In this document: piece by piece, positions 5,960 to 22,228 of the stretch
Numbering within the stretch: the first letter of the stretch is position 1
How the letters are laid out: the number at the start of each line of letters is the position of its first letter
IMG/VR virus record: IMGVR_UViG_3300032093_000709
Location: 1 to 26,702 of that record
DNA length: 26,702 nt
Strand: one strand, 5' to 3'
DNA from: a virus
Made by a program: the position numbers and the translations under genes
The notes under the pieces: generated by a model
Seen by the model: the letters and a program-made list of their open reading frames with translations, nothing else
Told to the model about the DNA's origin: nothing
The model's database searches: none

Positions 5960-5966
5960 TTACTTA
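5953..5966. other. Palindrome formed by two convergent stop codons
   Basis: TAAGTAATTACTTA is a perfect 14-base palindrome centred between 5959 and 5960. The plus-strand polymerase stop (5957-5959) and the minus-strand stop (5960-5962) touch with no base between them. It is AT-only apart from one G and one C, and has no T tract, so it is unlikely to be an intrinsic terminator. Confidence 0.7.
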
Positions 5967-8884
5967 GGTATGGAATAGTAGCGGTCTCCAATTTTTACAA
6001 CCTTGGAGCCGCGCTCTTTTTCAGCCGCCTCGGCCTTATCAAATGTCTCATGTGCCTTGCCCTTAAGCATTACGTAGGCATCCCTTGGCAAATCTCTTAG
6101 CATGCGCTCATCGTCTGATGTTGGCGCGACAGATCCCCAGTGACCCAAATCTTCTCCGGTACCAGTCGGGCCCATGCCGTACGCCATGGCTGTCTGGTAA
6201 TCATAACCGGCGCCCTCTGGGTTAAACACACTACCACCACCGGCTTTTCCTTCAACAGCCTTCTTGACAGGTGTTGGGTAAAACAATAAACCAACGTCGT
6301 CATTGGCGTAGCCCTTGTAGCCTGCCTGCTTAATTAGACGCTCTAGCTCGTTGAGTTGTTGCTTCTCATCAACCTGTTGAATGCCTTGGCTCATTAGATA
6401 TGGGTCAAGGCTTTTTTGTTTGGCGATTGCAGACAGCCCCAGTGGGTCTTCATGCAGTGGATAAATATCTTCTGCCATTCCCTGATACTTGTGTGGGCCC
6501 AGTCCTTGCTCTGGTTTAACGCCAGGCTTGTCTACATAAAAATAAGAACGCGGCTTAATATCCAGCGCCTCTTTTAAGCGATCAGCCTCCGCGCCCTTGA
6601 TACCTTTACCGTACATGCGTGGGTCTAGTTGGCTGATTGATGGTGCGTTGGAAAAGTGTACGAACGGCAGTGACTTAGCGTGCTCTAACATTTTACCAAT
6701 TTTACCACCACCAGCAAATCCTGGGTAGTTAATATCAATCTGCTCTGGTGGCAGGATCAATGGTTTCTGTGGTGCGTACTTAAACTGTTGGCCTAACTTA
6801 ACAAGCTGATCATTAATTGCGCTGGGGTCGCCGCCAGACTTTATTAATTGCTCACGCTGGGCTTTTAGCTGATTCATTGCGTTAATTAATTCTTCGTTCA
6901 TGCCAGAGTAGCTAACTAAAGAGTTTTGGCCTCGCGTCTCAGTCGCAGCAGCTAAACGTGCTAGTGGTGAGTACATCTGTGAGTGTGCGCCGTAGGCTAG
7001 TTCTTCACCCTTAGGGCCAAACGATGCACCAGTAGTGCCATGACCAAAGTAATCGTGCACGGCCCTGAACTGTTCGTTTGCCTCTTTGTTAAGCGCTGGG
7101 TGTGGCTCACCACCCTGAAATACTGTTAGGCGTTTATTTTGTAGTGCATCCTCGAGCATCTCTTTGGAGCTCTTGTATGCCCTCTCACCAGTGGGGTCAA
7201 ACGATAACTTAACACCAGATCCCTGGAGTGCCTGGAACTGATCGGCTGTCTCTTTAGCCATCTGCTGGTAAGCCGCCTGGGTTAGCTCGTCGTAGTTAGT
7301 CGCACCAGATTTTTTAACAAGATCTGGATTCATCTGCAGATACTGTTTGAAGATCTGTTGCTTTACCTTTGGATCAACATTTTCCGATGACAGCATTTCA
7401 AACGCCTTTGCTACGGGAGTTTGTTTTTGCGCCGATGATACGGGCATGTTCTGTATTGCCTCTAAGCTAAACTTAGGTGCAATCTTTTTTGCCAGCTCAA
7501 CCGCGGCGTTTACTTTACCACCACCAGCATATTTCTTACCAGGGAAATCCGTAAGCTCTAGGCGTGGGTCGTTCCAGTCTGTTATCTCTAAGTCTTTACG
7601 TGGTGCGATAATGAGCGGGCCACTCTGTAGTTTTTCTTCTGCCCTAAATACCGGTAGCCCAGTGCTCTTGTCGTAGAACTGAGAGTGCCGGCGTGGGTCC
7701 ATACCGATCTGGGTATAGTTAGGATCGTTTAACATCTCGGCCATCATACGACGAACTTCGTCATCGGATGTACCAACGTTAGTGCCCTTTATAAGCGCAA
7801 AGGGGGACTTTGCAGAACCGATCTCTGCGCCTAAGGGGGTGAGAGCCTGCTCCTTCGTTCCGAGGCCTACACGGACCGCCTGGTTGGGCCTAGAGGTAAA
7901 CTCAACATCTTTGAGGTGCCCGGTTCTACCATAACTAATTGCTTTACCAGATGGATCGTGTGTTGTATCCACATACACGCCCTTTTGGGTATATGCTGGA
8001 ATATCTAAACGATTACCGACACGCATGCCCGCAGGAATAGGGGCCAGTGCCTTAGCCTGTTTGCTTGACATTAGAGCATTAATAATTTGCTCGTCAGTAT
8101 ATGCTGGTGGCAGTTCAGACCATTTACGAATAGGTAACTGCTGATTAAGAATGCGTATACGTTCTTCTTGGCTGATGTTACCCTTGAGATATTCTTCTAG
8201 CGCCTGAGCTACTTTGGGATCTTGACCGTGTGGATGCCGTTTAAGTGCAGACAAACCAGCTTTAATTGCGCCACCTTTGGCCTTCATAAACTCCGGCGAC
8301 TCGGCCTCTTCGGGATTGTACTTGGCAAACTTGCCACGGATCTTTGACGGGTCCAATACACCAACGTTTTGGTATCCAGACTCGTTAACGTTAAATGTCT
8401 TAATGCCACTTTCGCGTAGGTGTTGCAAAAACGCTGGAGACTCCATCGTCGTCCAGTTAGAGTGTGGGTCTTCAATTCTGGATTTAAACTGACGCGCCAT
8501 CTTGGGATCTTCAGCATATTTTTTGGCAACGTACGCCTCAACTAATGCGCGCCCTTCTGGTGACATTGGATCAAAATGATTTGACATGTCTACGCTAACT
8601 GGGTACATGGTAGAGCCCTTGTTATAGCTACCCAATGGCACAGCGTCGCCAGTCTTTAAACTAATGTATGGTCCCTTACCTGCGGTAAAACTATCGGCAA
8701 ACTTAGGGCTCTTTGTTACAAACGTAACACCGGGCGTAACAAAATCAACGTCGCGCACAGTTGACTTTAGTGGGTCAAATGCTTCGATGTTTGGATTTGG
8801 ACTGCCGTGATAAAAACCTGGAGTAAACTTTTTCTTGAACTCCTCAACAGCCGCCTTCATTTGTGCAGGTGTTAGCTTTGGCAT
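5960..8884 (-). CDS. Large polyvalent protein with two ADP-ribosyltransferase-like domains and an HDxFGH domain
   Basis: A 974-aa multidomain protein, last gene of the late operon. Residues 20-200 look like an ART domain of the polyvalent-protein type: FYHGS with H26-G27, then PGVTFVTKSPKFADSF, then LDPSKIRGKFAKYNPE. Residues 205-450 are a domain seen in other phage polyvalent proteins (GMRVGNRLDIPAYTQKGVYV and IGMDPRRHSQFYDKSTGLPV). Residues 451-720 hold RAVHDYFGH (H610, D611, H615) and TETRGQNS, resembling a metal or catalytic site. Residues 735-880 are a second ART-like unit (PRSYFYVDKPG, AGYKGYANDD). Residues 885-974 are a small conserved phage module (GHWGSVAP, LKGKAHETFDKAEAAEKERG). The segments are separated by KAKGGAI, YAGGGKV, FAGGGKI and KAGGGSV. 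Probably packaged and injected to modify host proteins; this is inference. The ATG directly abuts the upstream stop, with GGAAG in front. Confidence 0.75.
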   Translation of the reverse strand: MPKLTPAQMKAAVEEFKKKFTPGFYHGSPNPNIEAFDPLKSTVRDVDFVTPGVTFVTKSPKFADSFTAGKGPYISLKTGDAVPLGSYNKGSTMYPVSVDMSNHFDPMSPEGRALVEAYVAKKYAEDPKMARQFKSRIEDPHSNWTTMESPAFLQHLRESGIKTFNVNESGYQNVGVLDPSKIRGKFAKYNPEEAESPEFMKAKGGAIKAGLSALKRHPHGQDPKVAQALEEYLKGNISQEERIRILNQQLPIRKWSELPPAYTDEQIINALMSSKQAKALAPIPAGMRVGNRLDIPAYTQKGVYVDTTHDPSGKAISYGRTGHLKDVEFTSRPNQAVRVGLGTKEQALTPLGAEIGSAKSPFALIKGTNVGTSDDEVRRMMAEMLNDPNYTQIGMDPRRHSQFYDKSTGLPVFRAEEKLQSGPLIIAPRKDLEITDWNDPRLELTDFPGKKYAGGGKVNAAVELAKKIAPKFSLEAIQNMPVSSAQKQTPVAKAFEMLSSENVDPKVKQQIFKQYLQMNPDLVKKSGATNYDELTQAAYQQMAKETADQFQALQGSGVKLSFDPTGERAYKSSKEMLEDALQNKRLTVFQGGEPHPALNKEANEQFRAVHDYFGHGTTGASFGPKGEELAYGAHSQMYSPLARLAAATETRGQNSLVSYSGMNEELINAMNQLKAQREQLIKSGGDPSAINDQLVKLGQQFKYAPQKPLILPPEQIDINYPGFAGGGKIGKMLEHAKSLPFVHFSNAPSISQLDPRMYGKGIKGAEADRLKEALDIKPRSYFYVDKPGVKPEQGLGPHKYQGMAEDIYPLHEDPLGLSAIAKQKSLDPYLMSQGIQQVDEKQQLNELERLIKQAGYKGYANDDVGLLFYPTPVKKAVEGKAGGGSVFNPEGAGYDYQTAMAYGMGPTGTGEDLGHWGSVAPTSDDERMLRDLPRDAYVMLKGKAHETFDKAEAAEKERGSKVVKIGDRYYSIPK

Positions 8885-10759
8885 TTAGCACTTCCACTTA
8901 CGTAACGCTTTGTTGATACGTGAATCTGGATCGTTTGCTGTCTTGGATGATGTTAGCTTCTTCTTCATCCCGCCCATTCTGGCGCAGAATGACTTCTTAC
9001 GTGAGCCGCCCTCTGGCTGTGGTGCCTTTAGCTCGCCGCCAGTCTCACGCTTGTACGACGCGCGCCCCAGTGCGTTCAAGCCACCCGACGGGCTCTTGCC
9101 CTCAGAACGTTGCCATGCTGGTGTTGTAGAGCCGCCTTTAGCGTATCCTAGTTCTTGTAACGAACGTATTAACTTCTCATCAATAATTTGCGATGGAATA
9201 CCAACTGATTGACGATAGTTATAATCGGACAAAGGACGTCCGAGTTCTTTCATGGCTTTGGCTTCTAAGTCACGGAATAAAAACTCACGAGGCACAGGAG
9301 TAAATTGGTCTTCGCCTTTTTCTCCAATAATTAAATTCTTATATCCGGGGTGAACATCTGGTTTTAGTATTTGTGATTCTGCAGTAAATAATTGAGGACC
9401 AATAGCCCCTAACTCAGCCTCACGTAATGCTGGATCAATTGTTTCATCTAAGTGTCTTTGTAGATCAAGTGCTCCAATTCGCTTTTGACCCATAACGTCA
9501 GCGACCGCACCACGACGCTTAAACGCATTTGCAAACTCTAAAAACTCTTTGCTAGTAATATCAGGTGCGCCGGATAGTTCTTTCTTACCAGCCATTTTTG
9601 CGTTTAATGCTTCTATTTGTTGCGGCGTTACTTTACCAGAACGAATGTCTTCTAACAGTTCAGAGTACATTTTTTCAAACACTGGACGATTAGAGCGATG
9701 TGCTGTAGTGCTCATTAACATGGGAGAAACCACAGCACGATTTGAACCGCCAGCTTGGTTAACAGCATTCAATAGTCTATTAGCCGCACCGGGCGAATCC
9801 ATCGCCCAGGTGTACTCTGGATGTAAATTAATAAATCCAGGACCACCGGAGAACCCCCCTGTCGCCTTGGTGCGATCAGCCATTGTGCCGAGTAGTGTTT
9901 GTCCTTCACGAGGTATCAAAACCTCAGATAATTTTTTAGTAACACTTTTTGCTTTACCTAATTTACCGCCTTCAGCTAAGTGCACTAGACCACCGGCGGC
10001 TTTTTTCTCTTCCTCTTCTTTTGAAGGATAGAATATATCTTTAACTTCTTTGCCACCCTGCACGGTTGGTACTAACAAAGATAACCCGGTACCAATTGCA
10101 CGCAAAGGTTTAATGCGTGACTGGCTTAACGCACCACCAACTGTGCCAATGCCACTTAAAATAGCCCCACCGGTGTCGCCTTTTTCTATATCACTAATTG
10201 TTTTACCAGCCTCGGCACCCATGACACCCATGCCACCAATTCGTCTTGCGACACTTGGTTTACCTAGGCGTTCACTTGATATAATATTGGCCGCAGTTTT
10301 TTGTGGGAGAGATGGTTCGGCAGGTTGGTTTTCAATTCCAAGAAAACCCTTACGAATAGGAATTTGTGATCCACGAGATTGTACAGGTTTGCCTCGAGCA
10401 ATTTCACTTTTTTTGTAAGCCTCTTCAAACGTAGCACCACCAACATTGGGTCCAGTAGTCTGTGTGGCTAACCATTTAGCTACTTTGTCACCGCGCGGTG
10501 TGCCCTTTGGCCCAGCAACTTTTTCTGCAACTTTAGTTGCTGTGGTATCAACAGCGGAACCTACAGCGGGGCCGGCAATAGCACCAAAAGTGCTACCAAT
10601 AGCAGCGCCAGCCGCTGGATAAATCATATCACCAGAGCTGCTTTCTTCTTGGGCCTGCAATTGCCTAATGTAGTCCGCTAATTCTTTTGCGTCCTCTACA
10701 TTACCGGCAGCGTCTGCCTTCTCAAATGCGTCTATGGCTTCTTGTAATTGTGGATTCAT
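8885..10759 (-). CDS. Polyvalent / ejection-type protein with membrane segment and basic Cys-containing tail
   Basis: A 624-aa product. The N-terminus (residues 1-38) is a helical hairpin typical of phage ejection proteins (AFEKADAAGNVEDAKELADY). Residues 45-70 are a Gly/Ala-zipper hydrophobic stretch (GAAIGSTFGAIAGPAVGSAV) that could insert in a membrane, and another Gly-rich region follows near 170-225. After two GG motifs (KKAAGGLVHLAEGGKLGK, about 253-266), residues 270-535 form a globular polyvalent-type domain with INLHPEYTWAMDSPGAANR and VVSPMLMSTTAHRSNRPVFE. A third GG motif (YAKGGST, about 538) precedes a C-terminal basic domain: RKKSFCARMGGMKKK, then NDPDSRINKALRKWKC. This matches DUF6321-like tails seen in phage proteins. 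It shares its first base with the upstream stop (TAATG). An injected membrane-active effector is plausible but unproven. Confidence 0.65.
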   Translation of the reverse strand: MNPQLQEAIDAFEKADAAGNVEDAKELADYIRQLQAQEESSSGDMIYPAAGAAIGSTFGAIAGPAVGSAVDTTATKVAEKVAGPKGTPRGDKVAKWLATQTTGPNVGGATFEEAYKKSEIARGKPVQSRGSQIPIRKGFLGIENQPAEPSLPQKTAANIISSERLGKPSVARRIGGMGVMGAEAGKTISDIEKGDTGGAILSGIGTVGGALSQSRIKPLRAIGTGLSLLVPTVQGGKEVKDIFYPSKEEEEKKAAGGLVHLAEGGKLGKAKSVTKKLSEVLIPREGQTLLGTMADRTKATGGFSGGPGFINLHPEYTWAMDSPGAANRLLNAVNQAGGSNRAVVSPMLMSTTAHRSNRPVFEKMYSELLEDIRSGKVTPQQIEALNAKMAGKKELSGAPDITSKEFLEFANAFKRRGAVADVMGQKRIGALDLQRHLDETIDPALREAELGAIGPQLFTAESQILKPDVHPGYKNLIIGEKGEDQFTPVPREFLFRDLEAKAMKELGRPLSDYNYRQSVGIPSQIIDEKLIRSLQELGYAKGGSTTPAWQRSEGKSPSGGLNALGRASYKRETGGELKAPQPEGGSRKKSFCARMGGMKKKLTSSKTANDPDSRINKALRKWKC

Positions 10760-12756
10760 TACTGATATTTTTTCAATAGATTTTTTACGCGGTCTGATTT
10801 AATATCTGTTTTAGATGCTTTGCCTGGTGCTGCAGTCTTTTCTTCTGGGGGAACTTGAAGCGGATTATTATCTGTTATCTTCATACCTAAAATATCGCCA
10901 AGATCTTTATTGTGTTGAGCGATAATTGTCTTTCCTTCGTTTCGGAAAAACACATCAGGATCTGCATAGGTACCGGCACGATCTCTGTATTTAGCATATG
11001 CGTCTGCCATTTTCTTATCAAACTGTGCACGCTCAGCCATAACTTTTGACTGCATTAGCAAAATTTTTGCTGGATCTTTGGTTGATCCAACTGCTTGCTG
11101 TACTAATCTACGCTCGTTGTCTGATACGGCACCTTGTCCAGCTAGGTATACCTTGGCATACTCCAACTCTGCCTGTTTTAAATGTTTTTCAACACGTAAA
11201 AACTTTTCAATTTGTTGCGGAGAAGCCCCGGCTACCGTCAAGTTTCTTTCAAGATCACTAATACCAATTGTACCAAACTGACCAATACTTGCACCACTTT
11301 CAATTTGTTTTAAAATAAATGGTACCATACCCTGTTTAGATAGTTTACCAAATACGGCTTGCATGTCTTTGTCTTGTACAATAGAAAGAATATCATTGTA
11401 CCTAGTTTCACGTTCACCAGCAGATTGACCAAGACGGTTTACTTCAGCAGCAAGTTTACCAACGTCTTTACCTAACTCTTTAGCTGCCTCTCCGGCACCT
11501 GTTTTTTCAACCTCTAATTGACCAACAGATTTACGTTCTACTTTTGGTTCAGATGGTGCACCAGTGGGCACAGCCTCTGCCTGTTTAGTAGATGCCTCAG
11601 TAGGTCTTTGTCCGGATTCAAATTGTGTAATAGCGTTAGATACAATCTTACGAGCCTCATCCGTATTTGGAATAGGTGCGGTTGGGTCGATGCCTAATTT
11701 ACCAGCAATAAACTTAGCATAGTTGGCAGTTGACTCTGGGCTATTACCCGTAGCAGTTGACGGCGCCCATGTCTCGGCTAATAGTGACGGTGTCATAATG
11801 TTGGCATCTTCACCAAATCGCTGTCTAACTGCTGGGCTCTGACCACTGAGCTTTAATTTTAAGTCTTCGTCAAGGGCTTTTTGTCCAGCCTCTAACGTGT
11901 CAAACTTCAAAAACTCGCCGGTCTTAGTATCTCTTAAATTGCCAGGATTGTTGTTACGCACGCTTACAGGGCCCGCAGCAGGAGCAGCGGCAGGAGCAGC
12001 GGCAGGAGCAGCGGCAGGAGCAGCGGCAGGAGCAGCGGCAGGAGCAGCGGCAGCCGGTTTGGCTTCTGCGGGAACGGCGCCGGCAGGTGAGAAGCGATAC
12101 TCTCTTCCATCTGGACCAATGTAACTTTGTGGAGCGTAGCCTTTCTCTTGAATGGTGCGCAAGAAAATATCACGTTGCTCGGGCGGCAATGTTTGTGCAA
12201 ACGCAAGATTCTTCTGTAAGTCTGGGCGTTTTAATTCATGCTCAGATACTAATTTTTCAAATGCAGCAAAATCTCCACCAGCCAATGCTTTCTTAGCAAT
12301 TGGTTGAATGTTTGGTGGCAACGAGTTCAACATGATTTCATACGGAGCTGTACCACCAGCGGCAGGAGCTGCGCCAGGTTGTTGTCCACCAGCACCGCCG
12401 CCGGTCAGACCATACATCTTAGCGGCGCGTTCTTGCGCGGCTTGGTTTGCTCTTACCGCGGCCATCTGACTACGGATGTCAAACAGTTCACGCTGTTCGC
12501 GCATCTTTTGTTCATCGCGTGCCAAAACATTTCGTGTTGGATCAATAGCGGCGTACGCCAGCGCGTCTTTTAATCCGCTGGTAAATAAATTTAATGGGCT
12601 CTCGCGCTCGTCAATGATGCGCTGCATGTTAGCCAAAATGCTTTGTGTTTGCGTTGGGTCTAACGCAACGTTTCCAGGAACAGAGAACCCACCCTTACTC
12701 TTTGGTGGGGTTACTATTCCGCCTAAACCGCTTTGAACTTGAGATTCTTCAGCCAT
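10759..12756 (-). CDS. Virion ejection protein with peptidoglycan-degrading (transglycosylase-like) domain
   Basis: About 665 aa from ATG 12756; a TTG at 12768, directly after the upstream stop, is an alternative start adding four residues. After a helical N-terminal part, a Pro/Ala linker made by a perfect DNA repeat (about residues 235-259) leads to VRNNNPGNLRDTKTGEFLKF at R267. This is the hallmark of a lysozyme/transglycosylase-like domain in virion proteins, followed by SLLAETWAPSTATGNSPEST and NYAKFIAGKLGIDP. The C-terminal half is helical and charged, ending SDRVKNLLKKYQ, as in internal virion proteins. The likely role is opening the cell wall during DNA entry. It sits in a run of ejection genes with near-zero spacing. 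Catalytic residues cannot be named with certainty. Confidence 0.75.
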   Translation of the reverse strand: MAEESQVQSGLGGIVTPPKSKGGFSVPGNVALDPTQTQSILANMQRIIDERESPLNLFTSGLKDALAYAAIDPTRNVLARDEQKMREQRELFDIRSQMAAVRANQAAQERAAKMYGLTGGGAGGQQPGAAPAAGGTAPYEIMLNSLPPNIQPIAKKALAGGDFAAFEKLVSEHELKRPDLQKNLAFAQTLPPEQRDIFLRTIQEKGYAPQSYIGPDGREYRFSPAGAVPAEAKPAAAAPAAAPAAAPAAAPAAAPAAAPAAGPVSVRNNNPGNLRDTKTGEFLKFDTLEAGQKALDEDLKLKLSGQSPAVRQRFGEDANIMTPSLLAETWAPSTATGNSPESTANYAKFIAGKLGIDPTAPIPNTDEARKIVSNAITQFESGQRPTEASTKQAEAVPTGAPSEPKVERKSVGQLEVEKTGAGEAAKELGKDVGKLAAEVNRLGQSAGERETRYNDILSIVQDKDMQAVFGKLSKQGMVPFILKQIESGASIGQFGTIGISDLERNLTVAGASPQQIEKFLRVEKHLKQAELEYAKVYLAGQGAVSDNERRLVQQAVGSTKDPAKILLMQSKVMAERAQFDKKMADAYAKYRDRAGTYADPDVFFRNEGKTIIAQHNKDLGDILGMKITDNNPLQVPPEEKTAAPGKASKTDIKSDRVKNLLKKYQ
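11981..12052 (-). repeat. Six perfect 12-bp tandem repeats encoding a Pro/Ala linker
   Basis: The plus-strand unit GGAGCAGCGGCA is repeated six times with no mismatch. It encodes PAAA-type repeats in the minus-strand ejection protein, just before its transglycosylase-like domain. Each unit is four codons, so copy-number change would alter linker length without a frameshift. Partial units flank it on both sides. Confidence 0.95.
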
Positions 12757-12768
12757 GTTTTTTATCAA

Positions 12769-13761: not shown

Positions 13762-13763
13762 AA

Positions 13764-15314
13764 TTATCTCGCTTTACGTTTTGCTTCTAACAAATAACCA
13801 AGTGGGCCTTTACTATCAGGCGGAAGTTCGCGTGAGTCTGCGTTACGTTTATGCTCACGAATTACCTGCAAAAATTCATCTAATAGATGGGCACCACTGT
13901 CGTTACTTCCATTACCAAGACTAGATACAACATCGGCCGGTATTACAAACTCACCGTTGGCTAACATGGCCGGCACGTCATCGCTTGTGCCGTCACCGTC
14001 GCCTTTTACATATCTGTTTTGTAGTCCACCCTCACTAAAGAACTCTGGATTGTGTCCTTCAATAGATCCACCGTCGGCGTATGCGGCTGGTGTGTTCCAA
14101 TATTTTTGTAAACCAAAGTCAGATTTACCTCGGATTAAATTTGGTTTTAGTTTTGTTAATCCGGTTACGGTATCTTGGTAATTAGTGTCGGTGTATGAAT
14201 CTACATTGCTACCATCAGCATAGTTTTGTATATAACCACCTTCGGCGGCACGAACCGGCGACAGTGGTGAGTTAAATTGGTCTATGTTTAGGTCAATTGG
14301 TTGGCCACGAACAATTCCAGCGGTTAAATTTGGTATACCAAAATTTGATAAGCCGCCTTGGTCTGATGTGGTTGTTGGCATCGTGTATTGACCCAAACCT
14401 GGCGCGTTTCTTGCAACCATCGTTCCACCAACACCGCTTAGCATATTATATACTTGGCGCGCCCTGTTGGCCGCCTTTAATGCTTCTTGTGCGCTTGGTA
14501 GCGATGTATCACCACGATCCCACGACGTTGAGCTACCAGATGGTACATCGGTATTTCTCGCCTGCTCTTGAAGATCTTGCTCTACATATTGTGAATCGCC
14601 GGGGTACTGTGCTAAACCGCCCTCGTCTATTGGTTCATTTAATAAATACTCACCGTCGGGTGTGTCAACGTATGGGGCATCAAGATCAATGTCAGCATTT
14701 AAGCTAGGTAAACCACCTTGATCTATTGACTCGTTTAATAAATACTCCCCGTCTGGCATGTCTACATATGGCGCATCAAGGTTCATGTCAGCACTTAAAC
14801 CAGAGCCAGCACCTGCACCAGCGGCACCAGCGGCATTTGCGTAACCTTCCGCACCGGCGGTAATGTCGGCGTCCCAATTTGGGATACCGCTATCAGAGAA
14901 TCCACCCTTGCCAATATAAGAACCAGCGGCAGCCAAAGCCGCGCTCTTTAAAATATCTTCTGGGTCTCTGCCCTGGACGACTCCAGAGGTTGCGCTTGTT
15001 GCGGCAGCTAATGCGGCGGCTTGTCCAGCGGTTAACGCGGCTCCTGTTACATAGGGGGCAGCATATGGAACGGCAACAGAGGCAACGGTTGTCCAACCGC
15101 CAGGAATTGTATCACCTACAAATTCATCAACGTCTGCCAATACATCGCCCGCACCTTGAACCACATCGCTTACCGCATCACCCACTGAGCTAACGGCGTT
15201 TTCAACAATCTCAACAGGATTCCAAGAACCGCCGCCACCATAAAGTTTTATGTGTCGATTGCCGCAGTGCTCAAAAGCACCAAGCGGGAGCATTGTCTCC
15301 AGGTGATATCTCAT
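13764..15314 (-). CDS. Putative ejection/tail protein with GG motifs and SDDxPAMLxxGEFVI segment
   Basis: A 516-aa product. After a conserved-looking N-terminus (MRYHLETMLPLGAFEHCGNR) comes an Ala-rich hydrophobic stretch (VASVAVPYAAPYVTGAALTA) that may cross or enter a membrane. Residues about 172-235 contain a tandem duplication of a 32-aa unit. Downstream are three GG motifs: AAEGGYIQNYADG, YADGGSIEG and FSEGGLQNRY. The C-terminal GTSDDVPAMLANGEFVIPAD is followed by SLGNGSNDSGAHLLDEFLQ. This SD-xPA-x-L-x-x-GEFV pattern is widespread in phage ejection and tape-measure-like proteins. Its ATG overlaps the preceding stop (ATGA). Its position between the nozzle and the transglycosylase protein suggests an ejection protein. 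Confidence 0.6.
   Translation of the reverse strand: MRYHLETMLPLGAFEHCGNRHIKLYGGGGSWNPVEIVENAVSSVGDAVSDVVQGAGDVLADVDEFVGDTIPGGWTTVASVAVPYAAPYVTGAALTAGQAAALAAATSATSGVVQGRDPEDILKSAALAAAGSYIGKGGFSDSGIPNWDADITAGAEGYANAAGAAGAGAGSGLSADMNLDAPYVDMPDGEYLLNESIDQGGLPSLNADIDLDAPYVDTPDGEYLLNEPIDEGGLAQYPGDSQYVEQDLQEQARNTDVPSGSSTSWDRGDTSLPSAQEALKAANRARQVYNMLSGVGGTMVARNAPGLGQYTMPTTTSDQGGLSNFGIPNLTAGIVRGQPIDLNIDQFNSPLSPVRAAEGGYIQNYADGSNVDSYTDTNYQDTVTGLTKLKPNLIRGKSDFGLQKYWNTPAAYADGGSIEGHNPEFFSEGGLQNRYVKGDGDGTSDDVPAMLANGEFVIPADVVSSLGNGSNDSGAHLLDEFLQVIREHKRNADSRELPPDSKGPLGYLLEAKRKAR
14612..14803 (-). repeat. Two tandem 96-bp units encoding a duplicated 32-aa module
   Basis: The protein reads LSADMNLDAPYVDMPDGEYL and then LNADIDLDAPYVDTPDGEYL, each followed by LNE-x-ID-x-GGL. 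The DNA copies start near 14612 and 14708 and have diverged mainly at third positions. So the duplication is in frame and has been kept under selection for some time. Confidence 0.85.
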
Positions 15315-15673: not shown

Positions 15674-15689
15674 TTTTTAGATGTGACAA

Positions 15690-15715
15690 AGTAGCCGTGG
15701 GTCAGCAAGGCTACT
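15690..15715 (-). other. Hairpin between two late genes
   Basis: AGTAGCC (minus strand, 15715-15709) pairs with GGCTACT (15696-15690) around a 12-base loop. There is no T tract, so it is a poor terminator. It lies 16 bases upstream of the next start codon and could act as an mRNA processing or stability site, or influence translation of that gene. Confidence 0.4.
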
Positions 15716-15732
15716 GTTGTTTATTCAAATTA

Positions 15733-15891: not shown

Positions 15892-15920
15892 ACTATCTCC
15901 TTGGGTTAAATGCTTCTACT

Positions 15921-15934
15921 TATACTAATGCAAA
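15921..15934 (-). promoter_or_regulatory. Putative phage promoter motif, copy 3 (upstream of ejection block)
   Basis: On the minus strand TTTGCATTAGTATA is followed by AGTAGAAG. It matches the first 14 bases of copies 1 and 2 and points towards the 52-aa gene, 29 bases away. No hairpin terminator precedes it, unlike copy 2, so read-through from the nozzle operon is expected as well. Confidence 0.62.
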
Positions 15935-15957
15935 TATATGGTCTTTATCGCCCTAAA

Positions 15958-16209
15958 TCAAGTGGTTGGACCATTTAAAATAAAACTAAGAGCCGAGGCC
16001 CACTCCTGCCAGGTCTCAAACGCCTCTGGGTCTGGCACGGGGTAGCTTTCAAACGTGGTAAGCTGGCTAATGTTTTTAGCAACCTGTTTCCAGTTTTCTT
16101 CAATGTCGTACATAATTGGCTCTTCGCCAAAGTAATGTAAGAAGTTACCGTTCCAATCTTCCCAAGACATATACTCTGGGTTGATTGGGAAGAATGTTTG
16201 GATACTCAC
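15958..16209 (-). CDS. Small conserved-looking protein downstream of the nozzle gene (83 aa, GTG start)
   Basis: The product starts at GTG 16209, overlapping the nozzle gene's stop as GTGA; coupled translation would make up for the missing ribosome binding site. It is acidic and very Trp-rich for its size (MSWEDWNGNFLHYFGEEP and FETWQEWASALSFILNG). The pattern W-x-x-WN-x-x-FLHYFGEEP is reminiscent of small proteins found beside gp10-like genes in other podovirus-like genomes, but I cannot name a family. It is the last gene before promoter copy 3. Confidence 0.6.
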   Translation of the reverse strand: MSIQTFFPINPEYMSWEDWNGNFLHYFGEEPIMYDIEENWKQVAKNISQLTTFESYPVPDPEAFETWQEWASALSFILNGPTT

Positions 16210-18341
16210 GGACGCTCGTCGCCGTACTCTGCCGTAATCAACAGGCGGCCCATTTGGAAGTCACCGTCGAGCACGTTGGACTCAAACTTTAACCTAACCT
16301 CACGATGCTCTACGCGCAGGTCAATCTTGCCGGTGTCTGGGTCAAAGTAAAATGGTCCAGAGGTTTCTGTATCTCCGCGGGCAAACTTACGGCCCAGGAT
16401 AGTCATAGCCATCGTGCCGGACTGTACAAAATCTGGTTCAATACGTCTTAGGTGCATACGTCGGTTTACGCCGGTGGCGCTGTCTTGTGATGGTATCCCA
16501 CCAACCCAGCTAATGTCGCAAGTCGTGATGCTAGATGTAATGGCAAACTCTTGGTTAAACGTAATTGCGTTTGTGCCAAACTCATGCTGCCAGAGTGGAT
16601 ATCCACCTTCAATATAATATATGTAATCGCCGGCTACTTGAATTGGGTCAAAGTTTTCTTCTACAGTGATTAACGTCACACCCTCTGGGTTTGTGGCGGT
16701 AATTGCTGAGGTAAACATAAAGACACTTGTCGTAATTTTATATACTACGGGCGTGCCTGTGTTTGTTAATGATATATAATCACCGGCACCAAAGGTAGCC
16801 GTAACGTCCCCGTTAACATATACTTGGTTATTATTTGCAACCGGTTCGCTTGGTGGGTTATCAATTACCTCAAACGGTATGCTAAATGTATTAATGTCTT
16901 CCCATCCGGCCCAGATAGGTGTTGGGAATACCTCGGTGGTGTATCCGCATGATCTACGTGATCCAGGCGCGCTTCCGGCGTCGTACCAGATTTTGTCTTT
17001 GACGTTGTATACAATTGCGTCGGTGCATTCTGTGGCATCGCCGCGGGGATAAAAAAACCAGATCTCATTATACCTAGGTACTTTGGTTGCCCATACCTTT
17101 TGGCGCTGTACAAAGTTGAGGTTATCAAATAGCCAGTTTACGTTTTTATCATTTGGCAGTACAGAGACCGCACCATTGTATAGGTAGAAACGGTCGACAC
17201 CCATCCAGTAAAATATACCATCCATCTCAACAAAGCACGAGGATGATATGGTAGAGATCTGGCTAGAAATAATATCATAGCGCCAGTACAACGGAGCCGT
17301 GCCAGTAAATGAGACACGGATCAAACTATCGGTTGCCCAGAACAATCCAGATGGTGAGTTAGTACCGCCACGCACCGGTATACCCTTAACAATCTTAGAC
17401 GAGGCCATGTTGACCTGGTTAGACGTTGGGCCATTCCAGTCGGTGATCGTTTGCTGATTGTATGTGGTTAAGTCTGCGTTTGTGTCAACGTTGTTGTTAG
17501 CAATAAAACCATCCGACCCATACACAAACGTGTAGGGATACAACACGCAAACACCACCATCTACTACGATTGGACGATAGGTTGGGTTTTGACCACCCGT
17601 ATCAGCCAGTCCATAAAAATTCCATTCGTTCAGTGAGTCTGGTAAAAGTCCACCAGTTAATACCTGGGTCTGTATGGCGTTGTCAATGTTTACCAAATTA
17701 CGGCCGGGGTGTGCTAATACCTGTAGTGACCCGCCCGCTGGCGAGTACTGTAAGTCAAACTGCCACAACAAAGTTGGATCTGGTGTAAACGTTACGTCAT
17801 ACAATGACACTGTTGTTGGTGTTCCTGCAATACTAGCGGCCGTTACAGTTACCGTTGTATTTGGTGCTAAATACGTTGCACTTACCACTGTAGTTGAAGT
17901 AGTAATGTCGTCGTCAAATATAACCGTCATTGCGGCGGGAAACGCTGCTGTTACGTCGCCAGCAATTACAAAGGTGCTAGTTGTATTTGATACCAACGTA
18001 AACGGTGAGTAGCCGGGTAAAATATTTACAGTAAGCGGACCACTGCCAACGCCAAACGTAGTGCCTGTTGTAAATGCTTCTAAACCATACTGGTTACCAA
18101 CAAAAATGTAGTTAACTCCGTTAAAGGAGTTAGATATCATGCCTCTTGGTATGCCGGTAAACGTTGCAAACAACTCACGGTAGCCGCCCATTTTTCTGGG
18201 TGTGCCACGTTGAAAACGGCACCATTCTCCGTCACTAAACTCGCGTGACTCAAATACTGTGCCGTCTCGTTTTATGCCTGGCTGTACGCCAAGCGTGTAG
18301 ACCAGATTATACTGATCTGGTAGCTTGTTTTCTCCAGCCAT
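16206..18341 (-). CDS. Tail nozzle / packaged-DNA stabilisation protein, P22 gp10-like
   Basis: A 711-aa, strand-rich protein of the P22 gp10 type, the beta-propeller hub or nozzle that closes the head after packaging. Typical features are an N-terminal segment (ESREFSDGEWCRFQRGTPRK, GGYRELFATF), propeller-blade strands such as SNSFNGVNYIFVGNQYGLEA, the mid-protein FYWMGVDRFYLYNG, and VWATKVPRYNEIWFFYPRGD. A domain with three Thr/Val-rich repeats (about residues 95-180) looks like an added surface domain. Its place after the gp4-like adaptors matches the P22 order. It shares one base with the fibre-like gene upstream (TAATG) and overlaps the 83-aa gene downstream. Confidence 0.8.
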   Translation of the reverse strand: MAGENKLPDQYNLVYTLGVQPGIKRDGTVFESREFSDGEWCRFQRGTPRKMGGYRELFATFTGIPRGMISNSFNGVNYIFVGNQYGLEAFTTGTTFGVGSGPLTVNILPGYSPFTLVSNTTSTFVIAGDVTAAFPAAMTVIFDDDITTSTTVVSATYLAPNTTVTVTAASIAGTPTTVSLYDVTFTPDPTLLWQFDLQYSPAGGSLQVLAHPGRNLVNIDNAIQTQVLTGGLLPDSLNEWNFYGLADTGGQNPTYRPIVVDGGVCVLYPYTFVYGSDGFIANNNVDTNADLTTYNQQTITDWNGPTSNQVNMASSKIVKGIPVRGGTNSPSGLFWATDSLIRVSFTGTAPLYWRYDIISSQISTISSSCFVEMDGIFYWMGVDRFYLYNGAVSVLPNDKNVNWLFDNLNFVQRQKVWATKVPRYNEIWFFYPRGDATECTDAIVYNVKDKIWYDAGSAPGSRRSCGYTTEVFPTPIWAGWEDINTFSIPFEVIDNPPSEPVANNNQVYVNGDVTATFGAGDYISLTNTGTPVVYKITTSVFMFTSAITATNPEGVTLITVEENFDPIQVAGDYIYYIEGGYPLWQHEFGTNAITFNQEFAITSSITTCDISWVGGIPSQDSATGVNRRMHLRRIEPDFVQSGTMAMTILGRKFARGDTETSGPFYFDPDTGKIDLRVEHREVRLKFESNVLDGDFQMGRLLITAEYGDERP

Positions 18342-19603
18342 TAGAACGTCCCGCCACCAATTAATCCTGCGTTAAATGTTGCTGGTGTGGATACCTGTGG
18401 GTCTAATGTGTTAGTGTTATCAATATCTAACATTAATACGGAGTTGGCAGAAAACCCTAAATTATTGGTACCAACCAAATACATACCAGTGTTTGTATCA
18501 CTTGTAAAAGAAAAAGATGGAGCTGCGGCAGAGCCGTTGTCTGCATAGTAAACGCCAACAGTTGTCTGGCTAATAACATATAGCTGGTTACCATCACTGA
18601 GCGCCAAAATAACACCACCATTACTTAATGCAATAGGTGTCTGTAAGCTACCAGAGATTTGGAACGTGACATTGTATCCTGGCTGACCTGTATTGTTTAC
18701 CAACACATACAACTGTGTGGTGGCTGGTAACGTAACATCTAAATCAACCGCACGGGTGCCAGCCAACGCAACGTATGTCTGAATAATTGGTGCGTATGAT
18801 ACTAAGCTAAATGTGTTACCAACAATAGAGTCTACGTCATACGTTGCAGATGTGAACGTTACATTTGATGGTACCGACAAACCAACCGTAAAGAAGTTAC
18901 CAGAGGATTCTTGGAAGACAATAAAACCAGACTCTGCGGGGTTAACGGTGATAGTGGCTAAACTGTCAATTGTTGAAGTGCCTTGTGGCGTGATTGTAAT
19001 CGCACCAGTTCCGTTATTTCTAAACGCAATATACCAACCAGTAGTTAAACTAGCCGCCGTTGGTAGTGTAAATGTGCCATTGCCGCCCGTCCAAACAAAT
19101 GTAGCGGCACGGCTTGCGTCTGTAATTGATGGTGTTGACGATACTTCTACAATGTTTTGTGTAGTGTTTAATTTGCCAGATAGCGCAACTAAACCGTTTC
19201 CAGCTAACGAAGCGGCATCGGCGGATGATGTGCCAGCGCCAAAGGTTACATTTTGCCAGACACCGGCTGAGGTGGAGTTATCCGATAGATAAAAATATTT
19301 AGACACTCCTGCGGGGATTGACACAGATCCTGTACCAGCAAAGTCTTGTACAGTAAATGCTACGCCACCAAAGTTACGAATTAAGATATCCGCGCCGGTG
19401 GTTCCCTGATTTCCCTCAGGCAGGGAGATAACTAAACCAGAAGTAGACGGCGTGCAGTCAATAATACGGGCGGCTGGTACCTGCTGTGGATTAACAACGG
19501 CAGGCCAGTAAAGCTGCACATTCGCACTGAAGTTAAGTTCGTAGTACGATACGTCCGTTGGCTGGACAACTGTTCCGGTAAACGGTGATGTATAAATTGG
19601 CAT
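18341..19603 (-). CDS. Tail fibre/spike-like or decoration protein
   Basis: A 420-aa protein, Thr/Ser/Gly/Asn-rich and poor in Lys and Arg, with repeating strand patterns (GFIVFQESSGNFFTVGL, GVILALSDGNQLYVISQTTV). The C-terminal part FSFTSDTNTGMYLVGTNNLG followed by FSANSVLMLDID is a tailspike/fibre-type motif seen at the base of receptor-binding proteins. It lies between an adaptor and the nozzle gene rather than with the other fibres (24837-26686). That position would suit a protein attached to the nozzle or adaptor ring. AGGAA precedes the ATG. Whether it binds a receptor or decorates the tail is undecided. Confidence 0.65.
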   Translation of the reverse strand: MPIYTSPFTGTVVQPTDVSYYELNFSANVQLYWPAVVNPQQVPAARIIDCTPSTSGLVISLPEGNQGTTGADILIRNFGGVAFTVQDFAGTGSVSIPAGVSKYFYLSDNSTSAGVWQNVTFGAGTSSADAASLAGNGLVALSGKLNTTQNIVEVSSTPSITDASRAATFVWTGGNGTFTLPTAASLTTGWYIAFRNNGTGAITITPQGTSTIDSLATITVNPAESGFIVFQESSGNFFTVGLSVPSNVTFTSATYDVDSIVGNTFSLVSYAPIIQTYVALAGTRAVDLDVTLPATTQLYVLVNNTGQPGYNVTFQISGSLQTPIALSNGGVILALSDGNQLYVISQTTVGVYYADNGSAAAPSFSFTSDTNTGMYLVGTNNLGFSANSVLMLDIDNTNTLDPQVSTPATFNAGLIGGGTF

Positions 19604-19606
19604 ATA

Positions 19607-20227
19607 TTATGGTTCCTGAACCGTAGTATTTCTATCAATACGACGCGAGTTGTCTTCTTTTTTCAACGCAGCTAATGACTCGGTGTAGTATGCTTTCCAA
19701 ACCGGCAGCTTGTCCAACGCCTTTAAATAGCCTTGGGCCTGTAGTAAGGTACCAAACAACATCGCCTGCGGGCACTCGCGCGTGAACAAGTTAGTCTGGT
19801 TGCTTGTGTCAAGTGGCTGAATTAGGCTGTAGTAAATAATTTCTACAGGATAATCTTGGTCTGGTTTTGGTGCAAAGTTCCAGTTGTTGTAGTCATACTC
19901 ACCGTAATACTTTGGTTGACCATTACTTGACTCAGATTGGTACTGTGCAATATAATCCTGTGAGCGCAACAATATGGGCGCGCCGTTTACTTTCATTGAA
20001 ACGGTTTTGCGCCAGCGTGCTGGTTTAGCTAGTACATCTTGGTTAGTTGCCAAAGTAGTTTCTACTACGGTTAATTGTAGTAGTGACTTTAACTCGGCGG
20101 CAATCGCTGCCTCAGCCAATCCAATTAGGCTGGGGATCTGTGCAACAAACCCAGGGTCATCACGTTCCATGTAACGCTGGACGTCATCCACCAAGTTGTC
20201 GTAGGTCATTACGTATGCGCCGCTCAT
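19607..20227 (-). CDS. Head-tail adaptor protein, gp4/SU10-adaptor-like (short paralogue)
   Basis: A 206-aa helical protein with the adaptor N-terminal pattern (YDNLVDDVQRYMERDDPGFV, then IPSLIGLAEAAIAAELKSLL). A mid region DVLAKPARWRKTVSMKV follows, then a C-terminal helix bundle (AMLFGTLLQAQGYLKALD). It belongs to the connector proteins that bind below the portal. ATGA overlap with the larger gp4-like gene upstream suggests stoichiometric co-translation. MTYDN at residue 7 is a possible alternative start. Confidence 0.7.
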   Translation of the reverse strand: MSGAYVMTYDNLVDDVQRYMERDDPGFVAQIPSLIGLAEAAIAAELKSLLQLTVVETTLATNQDVLAKPARWRKTVSMKVNGAPILLRSQDYIAQYQSESSNGQPKYYGEYDYNNWNFAPKPDQDYPVEIIYYSLIQPLDTSNQTNLFTRECPQAMLFGTLLQAQGYLKALDKLPVWKAYYTESLAALKKEDNSRRIDRNTTVQEP

Positions 20228-21303
20228 CGTGTATAGTAGCTGTAGTTAGGTTGGAAGTAAATTGGCGACTTGTCGCGCTCTTCTTGTGCCGCGTCGTACT
20301 CTAATTGAGTGGCCATCTTTTCTAAGTACGCAATTCGTTGCAAATCAATCTGTGGTAACTGCATTGCTAGTTTGTGCGACAAGCTGGCCTGGATAGAACC
20401 AATCCAACGATTTGGCAGATATAGTTCATTTGTTAACGAACCAACGTCTGGCATCTGCGTCTCAACAATTAACTGAAACACTTGATAGTTATTGTTTGGC
20501 ACGGGCCACAGGTACATGCGCGGCTCAACTAAACGGTCAAACCAATACTGCAGTGTTCGCTGGCTGGGGAATTGTTTATTGGGGAGGCTCCAGTAATCGT
20601 TACGGTTTAGTCTGGCCATAGGAATAACCTGCTGGCTCTGTGCGAACTGGATGGCACGCAACGAGAATGTTGCTAATGTGTTTCGGTTTTTTAATCTAAA
20701 GTAATAGAACTCTTGTGTGGCGTTTATGCTAAAGTATGCCCACTCACGGTCAGCCAGTGTGGTGGATGGGAACGACTCCCACACCGTCCAGTTTGTTCCG
20801 TCGTTACTGACCTCAAAGTCTAAAGTATAAGTTGCCGTTGTTCCGGGGCAGTACGCGTTAAATCCAACGTAAAACAATCGTGTCTGCGGGCTGTATGCAG
20901 CACCGAAGTAATTATCTACTAGCGTCGTAGTTGCAAAAAGATCTAGTGTGTCGTTTGCGTCTTGGTCAAACAAATTAACCACGTTTGGGTTTGATGCTGG
21001 CAATAATCCACTGTACGATGGATTTGTAATATAAACCCAGTTTGCCTCGCGCACGTCAATCGTGCTCTCGGGTAACGAAACCCATTGTGCATTTGTTGGA
21101 GCGCCGATGACTTTATTTTCTAAGAGCCACAGGTTAACGCCGCGGTTAGATAGGTTCTGTAAAATATAATACAGCGCCTGTTTACCGGCGTCAATATATT
21201 CAGGCGTTATCTCTTCTGCCGTTTTACCAGCATCACGATATGCGTACGAGATCAACTGATCTACGTTGATCTTGGTCTGGTTAATGGTACCAGAGTATGA
21301 CAT
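20224..21303 (-). CDS. Head completion / tail accessory protein, P22 gp4-like, with inserted beta domain
   Basis: A 359-aa product. The N-terminal helices (INVDQLISYAYRDAGKTAEE, YIDAGKQALYYILQNLSNRG) and the C-terminal part (LVEPRMYLWPVPNNNYQVFQ, RWIGSIQASLSHKLAMQL) match gp4-like head-completion proteins of short-tailed phages. Between them, about residues 115-220, lies an inserted strand-rich domain (YTLDFEVSNDGTNWTVWESF, then EFYYFRLKNRNTLATFSLR). It looks like a discoidin or galactose-binding-like fold and is not part of the P22 protein. It starts three bases after the 55-aa gene's stop and overlaps the next adaptor by four bases. Confidence 0.72.
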   Translation of the reverse strand: MSYSGTINQTKINVDQLISYAYRDAGKTAEEITPEYIDAGKQALYYILQNLSNRGVNLWLLENKVIGAPTNAQWVSLPESTIDVREANWVYITNPSYSGLLPASNPNVVNLFDQDANDTLDLFATTTLVDNYFGAAYSPQTRLFYVGFNAYCPGTTATYTLDFEVSNDGTNWTVWESFPSTTLADREWAYFSINATQEFYYFRLKNRNTLATFSLRAIQFAQSQQVIPMARLNRNDYWSLPNKQFPSQRTLQYWFDRLVEPRMYLWPVPNNNYQVFQLIVETQMPDVGSLTNELYLPNRWIGSIQASLSHKLAMQLPQIDLQRIAYLEKMATQLEYDAAQEERDKSPIYFQPNYSYYTR

Positions 21304-21306
21304 AAA

Positions 21307-21474
21307 TTAACGTCCTCTGCCGGATGAGCGTTTAGTTACTTTTTGTGGGAGGTTTGGCTTTGCTTTGCCGGCCTTGATAAACTCTTTGCCAACCTTCTTA
21401 GGGATGCCAAGGGTTGACTTACCAGCGGCCGCTGCATACATCGCCTTCTGTTGCTGCTTAGACTCTATTGGCAT
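21307..21474 (-). CDS. Small basic conserved-looking phage protein (55 aa)
   Basis: The product starts [20 protein letters not shown], then [17 protein letters not shown], and ends in a basic tail (KRSSGRGR). The pattern KS-x-x-QQ-x-x-MY near the start followed by KEF-type helices resembles DUF3008-like small phage proteins of unknown function. One base separates its ATG from the stop of the Lys/Gly-rich gene, and three bases separate its stop from the gp4-like gene. It is basic, so nucleic-acid binding or packing inside the head is possible. Too short for most gene finders but supported by position and recurring pattern. Confidence 0.65.
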
Positions 21475-21475
21475 A

Positions 21476-22228
21476 TTAGCAAGCCTTTCCGCCGCGTTTT
21501 TTACCGGTTAGTTTACGGTACTTTGCCTCGTAGCTAGATGGGTCTTTTTCAGCAATTCTTTTTTCTTGTTCGGCGGCTTCTTTGTTTTGCTCTGGTGTAC
21601 CCATCACGTTTTCGTATAGTTTTTTACCGACGGCTTTAATATTGTCTACAATACCGCCGTCAGCATACTTTTTTACTTCACCGCCTTTTTTAGCGTAGCC
21701 CATCTTGTTACGGACGTTGGTTGGGAGTTTGGCCAGGCCAGGGTTCTCTTCTGCGTCGACAGATTTTAACGAGCCGCCCTCAGCACACTTTTTTGCGTAG
21801 CCACCCTTCTTCATCATTGGGGGCATCGCACCCATGTCTGGCGCTGGCTCGGCAATGTTTGACATCGCTGGCTTAATAGCCGCCTTAGATGGAGCTGCGG
21901 CTTTTTTGGGTTTGGATAGTTTAATTTTCTGGATGTCTTTAATGTCGCCAGAGTCTTTCTTCATACCAATCGAACCGCCCGCCTTGTAGCGACCAACGCA
22001 ACCGCCGTCTTTCTTCTTCATGCGGCCACCCTTTTTGAGTTTGGCCAGGTCAGTCTTATCACCCTCGTGTGACTGCTTGTCGTGCATGGCAAACGCCTTT
22101 TTCACGACTTTTTTGTCTTGTGCAATGTCTTCGCTCATCTCTGACTTTTCAGAGTGGCGTGATTTATACTTTACAGCGCCACCTTCTTTGAAGCACTGCA
22201 TCTTTGGTGAAGATTTAAAGCCGTCCAT
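21476..22228 (-). CDS. Lys/Gly-rich protein with an array of GG motifs (250 aa)
   Basis: The ATG at 22228 has AAGGA in front and lies 31 bases after promoter copy 4. The sequence is strongly basic and low in complexity, with repeated short motifs: [66 protein letters not shown]. Cysteines occur at four or more places, often next to a GG. Between them is a charged helical part ([20 protein letters not shown]). No enzyme domain is visible. It heads the operon of head-tail connector genes, so a minor virion or DNA-binding head protein is likely. Its motifs match those at the domain borders of the polyvalent proteins. Confidence 0.6.

Follow-up and report, generated by a model that had tools for sequence, protein, structure and literature searches.

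The motif [YFK]-A-x-GG-x-[VI] is almost certainly a joint between protein cassettes that is conserved at the protein level, and the large late proteins of the lineage in which it occurs are strings of exchangeable domains that end and begin at the GG, with whole cassettes gained, lost and swapped between joints. The window analysed is a stretch of 26,702 nucleotides from the IMG/VR virus record IMGVR_UViG_3300032093_000709. Its 16 minus-strand late proteins contain the exact pattern of the preliminary description, [YFK]A-x-GG-x-[IVK], seven times, with the first G of the GG at residues 204, 455, 726 and 883 of a 974-aa protein, 256 of a 624-aa protein, 415 of a 516-aa protein and 191 of a 250-aa protein. 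Shuffling these proteins gave a mean of 0.14 copies and reached at least seven in none of 2,000 trials, and the reversed pattern occurs once. This confirms the earlier claim of a motif recurring in at least four late proteins. Three stringencies of the pattern (exact, medium and loose) were used across the tests; the medium one, [YFHK][AKS]xGGx[IV], is found 10 times in the same 16 proteins and never reversed (shuffle mean of 0.18). Among 1,099 proteins of L002-L102, which are mutually related so that copies are not independent, the exact pattern has 119 forward, 20 reversed and 6.1 shuffled matches, and the medium pattern 259, 5 and 9.0, respectively. Other phage contigs have 88 forward and five reversed matches. 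The shuffles, the reversed pattern and the GG pairs outside the motif, used as a control, speak against a low-complexity or composition artefact, which was rejected. Across four long related records, 154 late-strand proteins hold 30 copies of the medium pattern and 83 early-strand proteins a single one; GG doublets are themselves more frequent in the late proteins (736 vs 59), so that the difference per GG is small and the late-gene excess is largely an excess of GG. An unsupervised first view of the GG flanks was dominated by redundancy.

The 974-aa protein has the following organization, all joints matching the exact pattern:

5960..8884, minus strand: 974-aa polyvalent-type protein, five modules and four joints
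8285..8884, minus strand: module 1, residues 1-200, possible ART-like fold from weak Pfam and structure matches
8264..8284, minus strand: joint 1, KAKGGAI, residues 201-207
7532..8263, minus strand: module 2, residues 208-451, folded at about 221-445 in the model
7511..7531, minus strand: joint 2, YAGGGKV, residues 452-458
6719..7510, minus strand: module 3, residues 459-722, matching phrog_3170 (E 3.3e-22 over 532-662)
6698..6718, minus strand: joint 3, FAGGGKI, residues 723-729
6248..6697, minus strand: module 4, residues 730-879, where relatives' homology blocks begin or end
6227..6247, minus strand: joint 4, KAGGGSV, residues 880-886
5963..6226, minus strand: module 5, residues 887-974, about 95% identical in L003 and L038

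The residue numbers given earlier for these joints were correct to within a few residues. In L003, joint 4 is joined directly to module 1, and module 2 has relatives in phages CRP-9, CRP-207 and ctYwJ313; the first two infect Roseobacter and have the motif. Module 1 matches Pfam ART-PolyVal below the cut-off (E 0.019), and its VIA-align scores to 6kyf (Z 7.7) and 9k3a_B (Z 7.8) lie under the level that the tool calls safe; a Foldseek search of the pdb for the ART-like fold had no match at E 0.001. Sequence searches of solved structures with the 974-aa protein, a 669-aa protein of the window and L100 returned no useful match. In the predicted structure of residues 1-470, two domains are folded and each is followed by a joint at pLDDT under 50, whereas the AlphaFold2 model of the full chain is poor (mean pLDDT 42.7), which leaves homology as the basis for joints 3 and 4. 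The structure prediction suggested as a check thus favours the border role for joints 1 and 2, which lie in low-confidence coil after folded domains, and is uninformative for the other two.

The other proteins with motif copies in the window are:

8885..10759, minus strand: 624-aa protein of the same block
9983..10003, minus strand: joint KAAGGLV, exact pattern, residues 253-259 of the 624-aa protein (GG at 256)
9959..9979, minus strand: looser joint LAEGGKL, residues 261-267 (GG at 264)
9125..9145, minus strand: looser joint YAKGGST, residues 539-545, before DUF6321 (GG at 542)
8894..9100, minus strand: DUF6321 domain (Pfam PF19846, E 1.1e-19), residues 554-622
13764..15314, minus strand: 516-aa protein with a tape-measure-like C-terminal element (phrog_6090, E 5e-7)
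14061..14081, minus strand: joint YADGGSI, exact pattern, residues 412-418 of the 516-aa protein
21476..22228, minus strand: 250-aa Lys-rich protein with many looser motif copies
21647..21667, minus strand: motif YADGGIV, exact pattern, residues 188-194 of the 250-aa protein

DUF6321 is the only Pfam match above cut-off in the window. The 516-aa protein has further GG doublets in AAEGGYI at 359 and FSEGGLQ at 429. The earlier counts were three copies for this protein and at least six for the 250-aa one; each has one by the exact pattern, and one and six, respectively, by the loose pattern, so that those numbers require looser matching. The 250-aa protein belongs to a Lys-rich, motif-rich family in which the copies occur without domains; its 44 members average 4.36 loose-pattern copies, compared with 0.21 when shuffled, and homologues of the 250-aa protein in annotated phages were not found at E 0.01.

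Comparison with related proteins places the motif at the borders of exchanged segments. The breakpoint set consisted of 40 of 49 modular proteins, near-copies having been removed. In this set, 57 of the 284 homology breakpoints fall within 6 residues of a motif (14.3 expected) and the remaining 227 lie farther away; GG pairs outside the motif have no breakpoint excess. Because the pattern had been loosened between tests, the analysis was repeated with the exact pattern, giving 32 breakpoints where 6.8 are expected. Gene starts and gene ends mapped inside larger proteins behave in the same way: 25 of 44 starts are within 6 residues of a motif (3.3 expected), most of them from one domain, DUF6321, and 64 of 82 ends are within 10 residues (9.4 expected). 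The count of fused DUF6321 omits L159, which is likely a stand-alone gene, as its upstream text leads into MAK immediately ahead of the domain. Of 313 insertions, the 44 in which both proteins carry motifs were testable, with the residues after GG left free. Both cassette ends and the empty site of the relative are at a motif in 26 of these (random mean 0.81, maximum 4 in 1,000 trials), and four have no site at one. ART-PolyVal cassettes are flanked by two joints in L087, L100, L110, L127 and L135. The preliminary description had proposed the motif as a marker of domain borders; breakpoints, internal gene starts and ends, insertions with their empty sites and the two-domain model all bear this out, and the border role holds more strongly than was stated there.

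A plain flexible linker, in which the motif is a favoured interdomain loop and swaps merely land in loops, would account for part of these observations, since loops are the expected place for domain swaps and the joints lie in low-confidence coil of the model. We consider it quite unlikely, as conservation is far higher in the motif residues than in their neighbours. In the alignment of joint 1, all 26 rows share the K, A, G and G and the residues beside GG vary, so mere flexibility is insufficient; joint 2 has GG in 16 of 16 rows. The lack of a breakpoint excess at other GG pairs, and the recurrence of the motif text in unrelated proteins with its reverse rare, both among the relatives and in other contigs, also argue against a plain linker.

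Alternatively, the shared nucleotides rather than the peptide could be kept, as a DNA site that promotes recombination. Exchanges do occur at GG codons, and GCTGGTGG, which we take to be the E. coli Chi octamer, lies inside two joints of the window; its other four sites are away from joints. Glycine codon usage at the motif departs from that in the rest of these genes, with GGC at 0.65 vs 0.42 in the 250-aa family and GGT at 0.71 vs 0.46 in the modular proteins, a bias that could also come from shared descent of the joints. However, GGC-GGC makes up 44% in the 250-aa family and GGT-GGT 53% in the modular proteins, and within a single insertion the codons of the left, right and empty joints are not the same. 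As gene families use different glycine codons, a single DNA signal, Chi-like ones included, is disfavoured, and we regard this explanation as highly improbable.

The main rival explanation is a proteolytic site, where a phage or host protease would cut after GG and free the modules. The big proteins would then be polyproteins, and small basic peptides would come from the 250-aa protein. In 15 of 17 DUF6321 rows the second Gly is at the Met position of stand-alone genes, so a cut there would give a near-native start. The text V-x-E-(G/S)-A precedes the domain in cyanomyovirus-like DUF6321 proteins; we take it to resemble the T4 prohead protease site and counted it for cleavage. A precedent is given in passages of PMC5512222 and PMC12810830, in which DdrB and DarA of phage P1 are processed before or during packaging. 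However, Peptidase S78 was found in none of nine related records, and S49, ClpP and C39 proteases in none of ten (E up to 1, some records being fragments), with which cleavage lost some ground, and copies a few residues from the C-terminus would release almost nothing. Overall, we find cleavage rather unlikely.

The window virus is of a P22-like podovirus lineage, and its relatives are water-living bacterial viruses. A gp10-like tail gene is followed by proteins including a muralytic domain, a feature of P22-type ejection blocks: a 711-aa protein has matches in MW202545 and MW202879 that bear the name phage stabilization protein, and the 669-aa protein matches phrog_873 endolysin (E 3.8e-11). 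A search for gp10-like relatives in bacterial genomes gave 24 pattern matches, none confirmed. Judging from the place of their genes, the large joint proteins probably travel inside the virus particle and are ejected. Relatives fuse disparate domains, such as ART-PolyVal with DUF6321 in L127 and L135, or ART-PolyVal (1.5 bits below cut-off) with SLT in L075; cassettes of this kind, ART-PolyVal included, suggest that the joint proteins are of polyvalent type.

These proteins resemble the polyvalent proteins as presented in passages of Iyer et al. 2017 (PMC5512222), which are large multidomain products of late genes that mix unrelated domains, have ART-PolyVal among them as the relatives do, and have an inferred packaging and injection. 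Those passages mention no common joint motif, and the words linker and glycine are absent from the main text, whereas here one short motif marks the borders. Literature searches returned no description of this GG joint, and nothing for DUF6321. The gene order, with a place after a gp10-like tail gene, and the muralytic-type domain also recall the P22/T7-type ejection proteins in passages of Swanson et al. 2022 (PMC8954989), where domain swapping of ejection proteins is known. Unlike those, the block here has extra polyvalent proteins with GG joints, and the 974-aa and 669-aa proteins had no sequence match to solved ejection proteins. Shuffling of fragments between phage proteins is likewise described in passages of PMC10684548, from whose main text the words linker, ejection and glycine are absent.

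Of the three functions put forward in the preliminary description, cleavage has lost ground, a plain flexible joint falls short, and a docking or packaging tag, as we infer, fits best. The joint-bearing proteins would be virion-internal, ejected and of polyvalent type, and the joint would be a short tag read by a putative partner in the virion or in assembly, be it scaffold, portal or coat. Each cassette would then carry its own ticket into the particle, and the glycines may give the chain the flexibility to leave through the narrow tail. The explanation as a whole, combining cassette joint, virion-internal ejected proteins and tag function, seems to us evenly poised; docking or packaging as the main molecular role of the joint is put forward tentatively, at somewhat under an even chance. 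In its working the tag would be akin to the T4 capsid targeting sequence, with copies recurring between the domains. The T4 sequence is single and N-terminal, unlike the joint, whose copies are mostly internal and whose packaging role is a proposal. In passages of PMC3012670, the internal proteins of T-even phages are varied defence proteins that share nothing but the targeting sequence; the likeness, with no sequence relation claimed, is that one short sequence recurs on proteins that are otherwise unrelated and, here presumably, internal and injected. Packaging in a dependent order is described for the P1 Dar proteins in passages of PMC12810830. In favour of a tag, copies occur apart from domains in the Lys-rich, motif-rich family and lie near the N-terminus in three of four scaffold-like proteins. 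Counting against a tag, most breakpoints are off-motif, N-terminal copies are rarer than chance outside the 250-aa family and motif proteins do not cluster on contigs. Such clustering was considered as a sign of a trans-acting partner and rejected, as 6 of 80 contigs have at least three motif proteins and permutation gives 5.9. The cyanophage A4 ejection complex, whose ART-like domain seemingly does without GG joints, also counts against it. Outside the 250-aa family, N-terminal copies number 18 vs 31.8 by chance and C-terminal copies, barely commoner than chance, 24 vs 18.6.

As a cargo tag, the joint would provide a sequence rule for phage domains carried into cells, effector cassettes would be readable from unannotated late genes, and a short peptide could be tried for loading reporters into phage. 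Even as a joint only, it is an exon-like border at which occupied and empty sites among relatives reveal gain and loss of whole cassettes, and it delimits domains for structure work.

A broader reading, which we hold to be unlikely, is a general code for virion entry or tail passage, with one GG tag across podovirus polyvalent proteins, scaffold-like proteins, a motif-rich Lys-rich protein and tape measure proteins from phages with long tails. Phages could then add new effector cassettes to proteins borne in the particle with no other adaptation needed, in a plug-and-play cargo system separate from the T4 targeting sequence. Joint-like GG text precedes the tape measure element ..GTSDSIPAxLSNGEFV.. 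in sampled phages: of 11 sampled loci, with the tape-measure-type loci L212 and L215 counted as misses, two are unmatched, four match a looser pattern and five match the medium pattern. The same element of annotated phages is present in the 516-aa protein.

The 26,702-base window, which is the entire virus record, is probably a fragment. As far as the sequence indicates, the plus strand carries replication-type genes, among them a putative family A DNA polymerase and a putative ribonucleotide reductase. The minus strand holds the late genes, encoding a protein of 711 aa and then proteins of 516, 330, 669, 624 and 974 aa. Sequence searches with the 711-aa protein returned genes named phage stabilization protein, which we take to be of the P22 gp10 type. 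The match for the 669-aa protein is an endolysin PHROG, and DUF6321, a domain found elsewhere as a stand-alone gene, lies at the C-terminal end of the 624-aa protein. In our reading, this late block is an ejection block of P22 type to which polyvalent-type proteins have been added. A search for the host of the window virus gave none. Further features of the window are:

1524-1979: 151-aa putative rubrerythrin, recognised by eye, an unusual neighbour for phage replication genes
11978-12053: 12-base perfect tandem repeat, 6.3 copies, encoding an Ala-Pro stretch of the 669-aa protein
14626-14805: 96-base imperfect direct repeat, 1.9 copies, inside the 516-aa protein
21476-22228, minus strand: Lys-rich 250-aa protein with many loose copies of the motif [YFK]A-x-GG-x-[IVK]

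The recurrence of this motif (the joint) in late proteins, proposed in the preliminary description, was borne out. The exact pattern occurs seven times in the 16 late proteins of the window, with a shuffle mean of 0.14 and none of 2000 shuffles reaching seven, and the reversed pattern occurs once in the same proteins. Among related records (L002-L102, 1099 proteins), the exact pattern was found 119 times forward, 20 times reversed and 6.1 times in shuffles, and a medium pattern, [YFHK][AKS]xGGx[IV], 259, 5 and 9.0 times. Corresponding values for 80 other contigs (1056 proteins), chosen solely for DUF6321, were 37, 7 and 3.6 (exact) and 88, 5 and 5.1 (medium). The motif is thus non-random. In four long related records, 154 late-strand proteins have 30 copies of the medium pattern versus one in 83 early-strand proteins, a comparison that adds little because GG itself is commoner in late proteins (736 versus 59 pairs).

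The joint marks the borders of cassettes, the domain blocks between joints, and three tests agree with the earlier claim that it lies at domain borders. Breakpoints, defined as mid-protein stops of homology to another member, numbered 284 in 40 non-redundant proteins. The loose motif lies within 6 residues of 57 breakpoints, with 14.3 expected (s.d. 3.7, maximum 27 in 500), and the exact pattern near 32, with 6.8 expected (maximum 16); GG pairs outside the motif account for 32 versus 35.6 expected. As 227 breakpoints lie elsewhere, the joint is not the sole place of change. Of the gene starts and ends that map inside larger proteins, 25 of 44 starts, mostly of DUF6321, are within 6 residues of the motif (3.3 expected), and 64 of 82 ends are within 10 residues (9.4 expected); the exact pattern accounts for 5 starts (0.8 expected) and 40 ends (3.8 expected).

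The third test used insertions of at least 70 residues, of which 313 were distinct and 44 lay between two motif-carrying proteins. In 26 of the 44, against a mean of 0.81 by random placement (maximum 4 in 1000), a motif lies within 12 residues of each of three sites, namely the left end, the right end and the empty site of the relative. These 26 come from 18 long proteins on 18 contigs and are not independent, since related proteins share events. Of the remainder, 12 have two sites at a motif, two have one and four have none. For instance, a 295-aa version in L003 joins modules 1 and 5 of the five-module 974-aa protein within the GG itself (FMKAEGG directly followed by SVFSPEG), and in L038 that place is taken by another module, about 190 aa long. 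A 167-aa insert in L005 is flanked by NFKEGG and MFAEGG, and the empty site in L025 reads NFKEGG followed by STTPAW. The ADP-ribosyltransferase domain of polyvalent proteins, ART-PolyVal, is flanked by two joints in L135 (E 2.4e-17), with a single joint there in L127. The same domain lies between two joints in a 393-aa protein of G001 (E 5.3e-12), encoded between terminase and portal, and in the relatives G002 and G004 the protein is shorter and has only one joint there.

Structure prediction upheld the placement outside folded domains for joints 1 and 2 of the 974-aa protein; the quality of the whole-protein model (mean pLDDT 42.7) was insufficient for joints 3 and 4. A model covering residues 1-470 (29 sequences, mean pLDDT 72.8) has two well-folded stretches at about 90-185 and 221-445. 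Values below 50 are found at residues 186-220, containing joint 1, and 453-464, overlapping joint 2; confidence is low at residues 38-91 of module 1 too. All 26 alignment rows have the same K, A, G and G at joint 1, and in 25 the next-but-one residue after GG is V or I, with the residues immediately before and after GG variable. At joint 2 all 16 rows have GG, and all 16 have Y or F. The best second-look fold matches of module 1 were 9k3a_B, belonging to the pre-ejectosome of cyanophage A4 (Z 7.8, 143 residues), and the anti-CRISPR protein 6kyf (Z 7.7, 129 residues), followed by toxins and PARP-type enzymes. An ART-like fold is thus predicted, and ART identity is likely, not proven, because Z below 8 can reflect a common arrangement.

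We favour the joint as a portable docking or packaging tag doubling as a linker, since the motif occurs at cassette borders, without domains, in tandem, in scaffold-like and tape-measure settings, and in Roseobacter phages CRP-9 and CRP-207 and uncultured phage ctYwJ313. The step to a tag is one we infer: it would be recognised for docking or packaging, and the same stretch would serve between domains as linker. The motif is found without domains in a motif-rich, Lys-rich family (44 proteins, 170-458 aa), in which 30 copies lie no more than 15 residues from the C-terminus versus 16.6 expected. Tandem copies are often spaced by 8-9 or 14 residues, and three of four proteins called scaffold-like from gene place and composition only have the motif near the N-terminus. 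Tape measure proteins, like ejection proteins, exit through the tail. Their element GTSDSIPAxLSNGEFV is preceded by joint-like GG text, with the medium pattern in five of 11 sampled loci, a looser one in four and two unmatched; the query itself contained the motif, and several matches did not need it. In CRP-9, CRP-207 and ctYwJ313 a relative of module 2 is encoded between portal and coat, with GG motifs downstream (e.g. GYAEGGSV in CRP-207). T4 offers a precedent for such a tag, since a capsid targeting sequence is the single feature that its diverse internal defence proteins have in common (PMC3012670), and the Dar proteins of P1 are packaged in a dependent order (PMC12810830). Counting against a tag, N-terminal copies outside the family of the 250-aa protein are rarer than chance, and no GG joint was seen in the ejection proteins of cyanophage A-4L. 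Anabaena phage A-4L gp27 (L217:20116-25269) has ART-like text and is presumably chain B of 9k3a_B; a podovirus ejection complex seems here to have an ART-like domain but no GG joints.

The main rival is cleavage after GG, freeing the domains. In 15 of 17 DUF6321 rows the second Gly sits at the position of the Met of the stand-alone gene, so a cut would leave DUF6321 with a near-native start, and P1 proteins of polyvalent type undergo processing (PMC5512222, PMC12810830). Against it, four protease families were not found in 9-10 related records, which may include fragments. Among the best 80 of at least 600 stretches matching DUF6321, 65 have it as a stand-alone gene whose start lies a few residues ahead of the domain. 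With L159 set aside, GG precedes 10 of the 14 fused copies; L171 is an exception. L179, L189 and L197, whose text resembles that of cyanomyoviruses, have V-x-E-(G/S)-A in place of GG, a text that may be linked to the T4 protease site, and two annotated cyanomyoviruses have LMEGVA and VIDEKSA before DUF6321. Phages therefore differ in the short text that attaches this cassette. In this small sample, the difference fits a tag as well as a cut site, either of them suited to the assembly of the phage concerned. The cyanomyovirus DUF6321 proteins at L123:985-3555 and L124:1216-3315 are without a GG joint; that of L123 repeats FSNWRDD, FSNWRDN and FSSWRDD, perhaps the lineage's own tag.

Both polyvalent proteins and the domain mosaicism of phages are already known. 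The literature searched, in the passages covered, does not describe a joint motif shared by cassette borders. The GG codons of joints are GGC-GGC in 44% of cases in the family of the 250-aa protein versus GGT-GGT in 53% in modular proteins, and within a single insertion they differ between the left joint, the right joint and the empty one; these differences favour a protein-level constraint. Within each class, motif Gly codons are also unlike Gly codons elsewhere in the same genes; a DNA effect could lie behind this bias, although shared descent may explain it. Many motif-bearing small proteins (window 21476-22228 and L126-L205) have a C-terminal Cys a few residues after GG (GGKAC, GGYC, GGKC).
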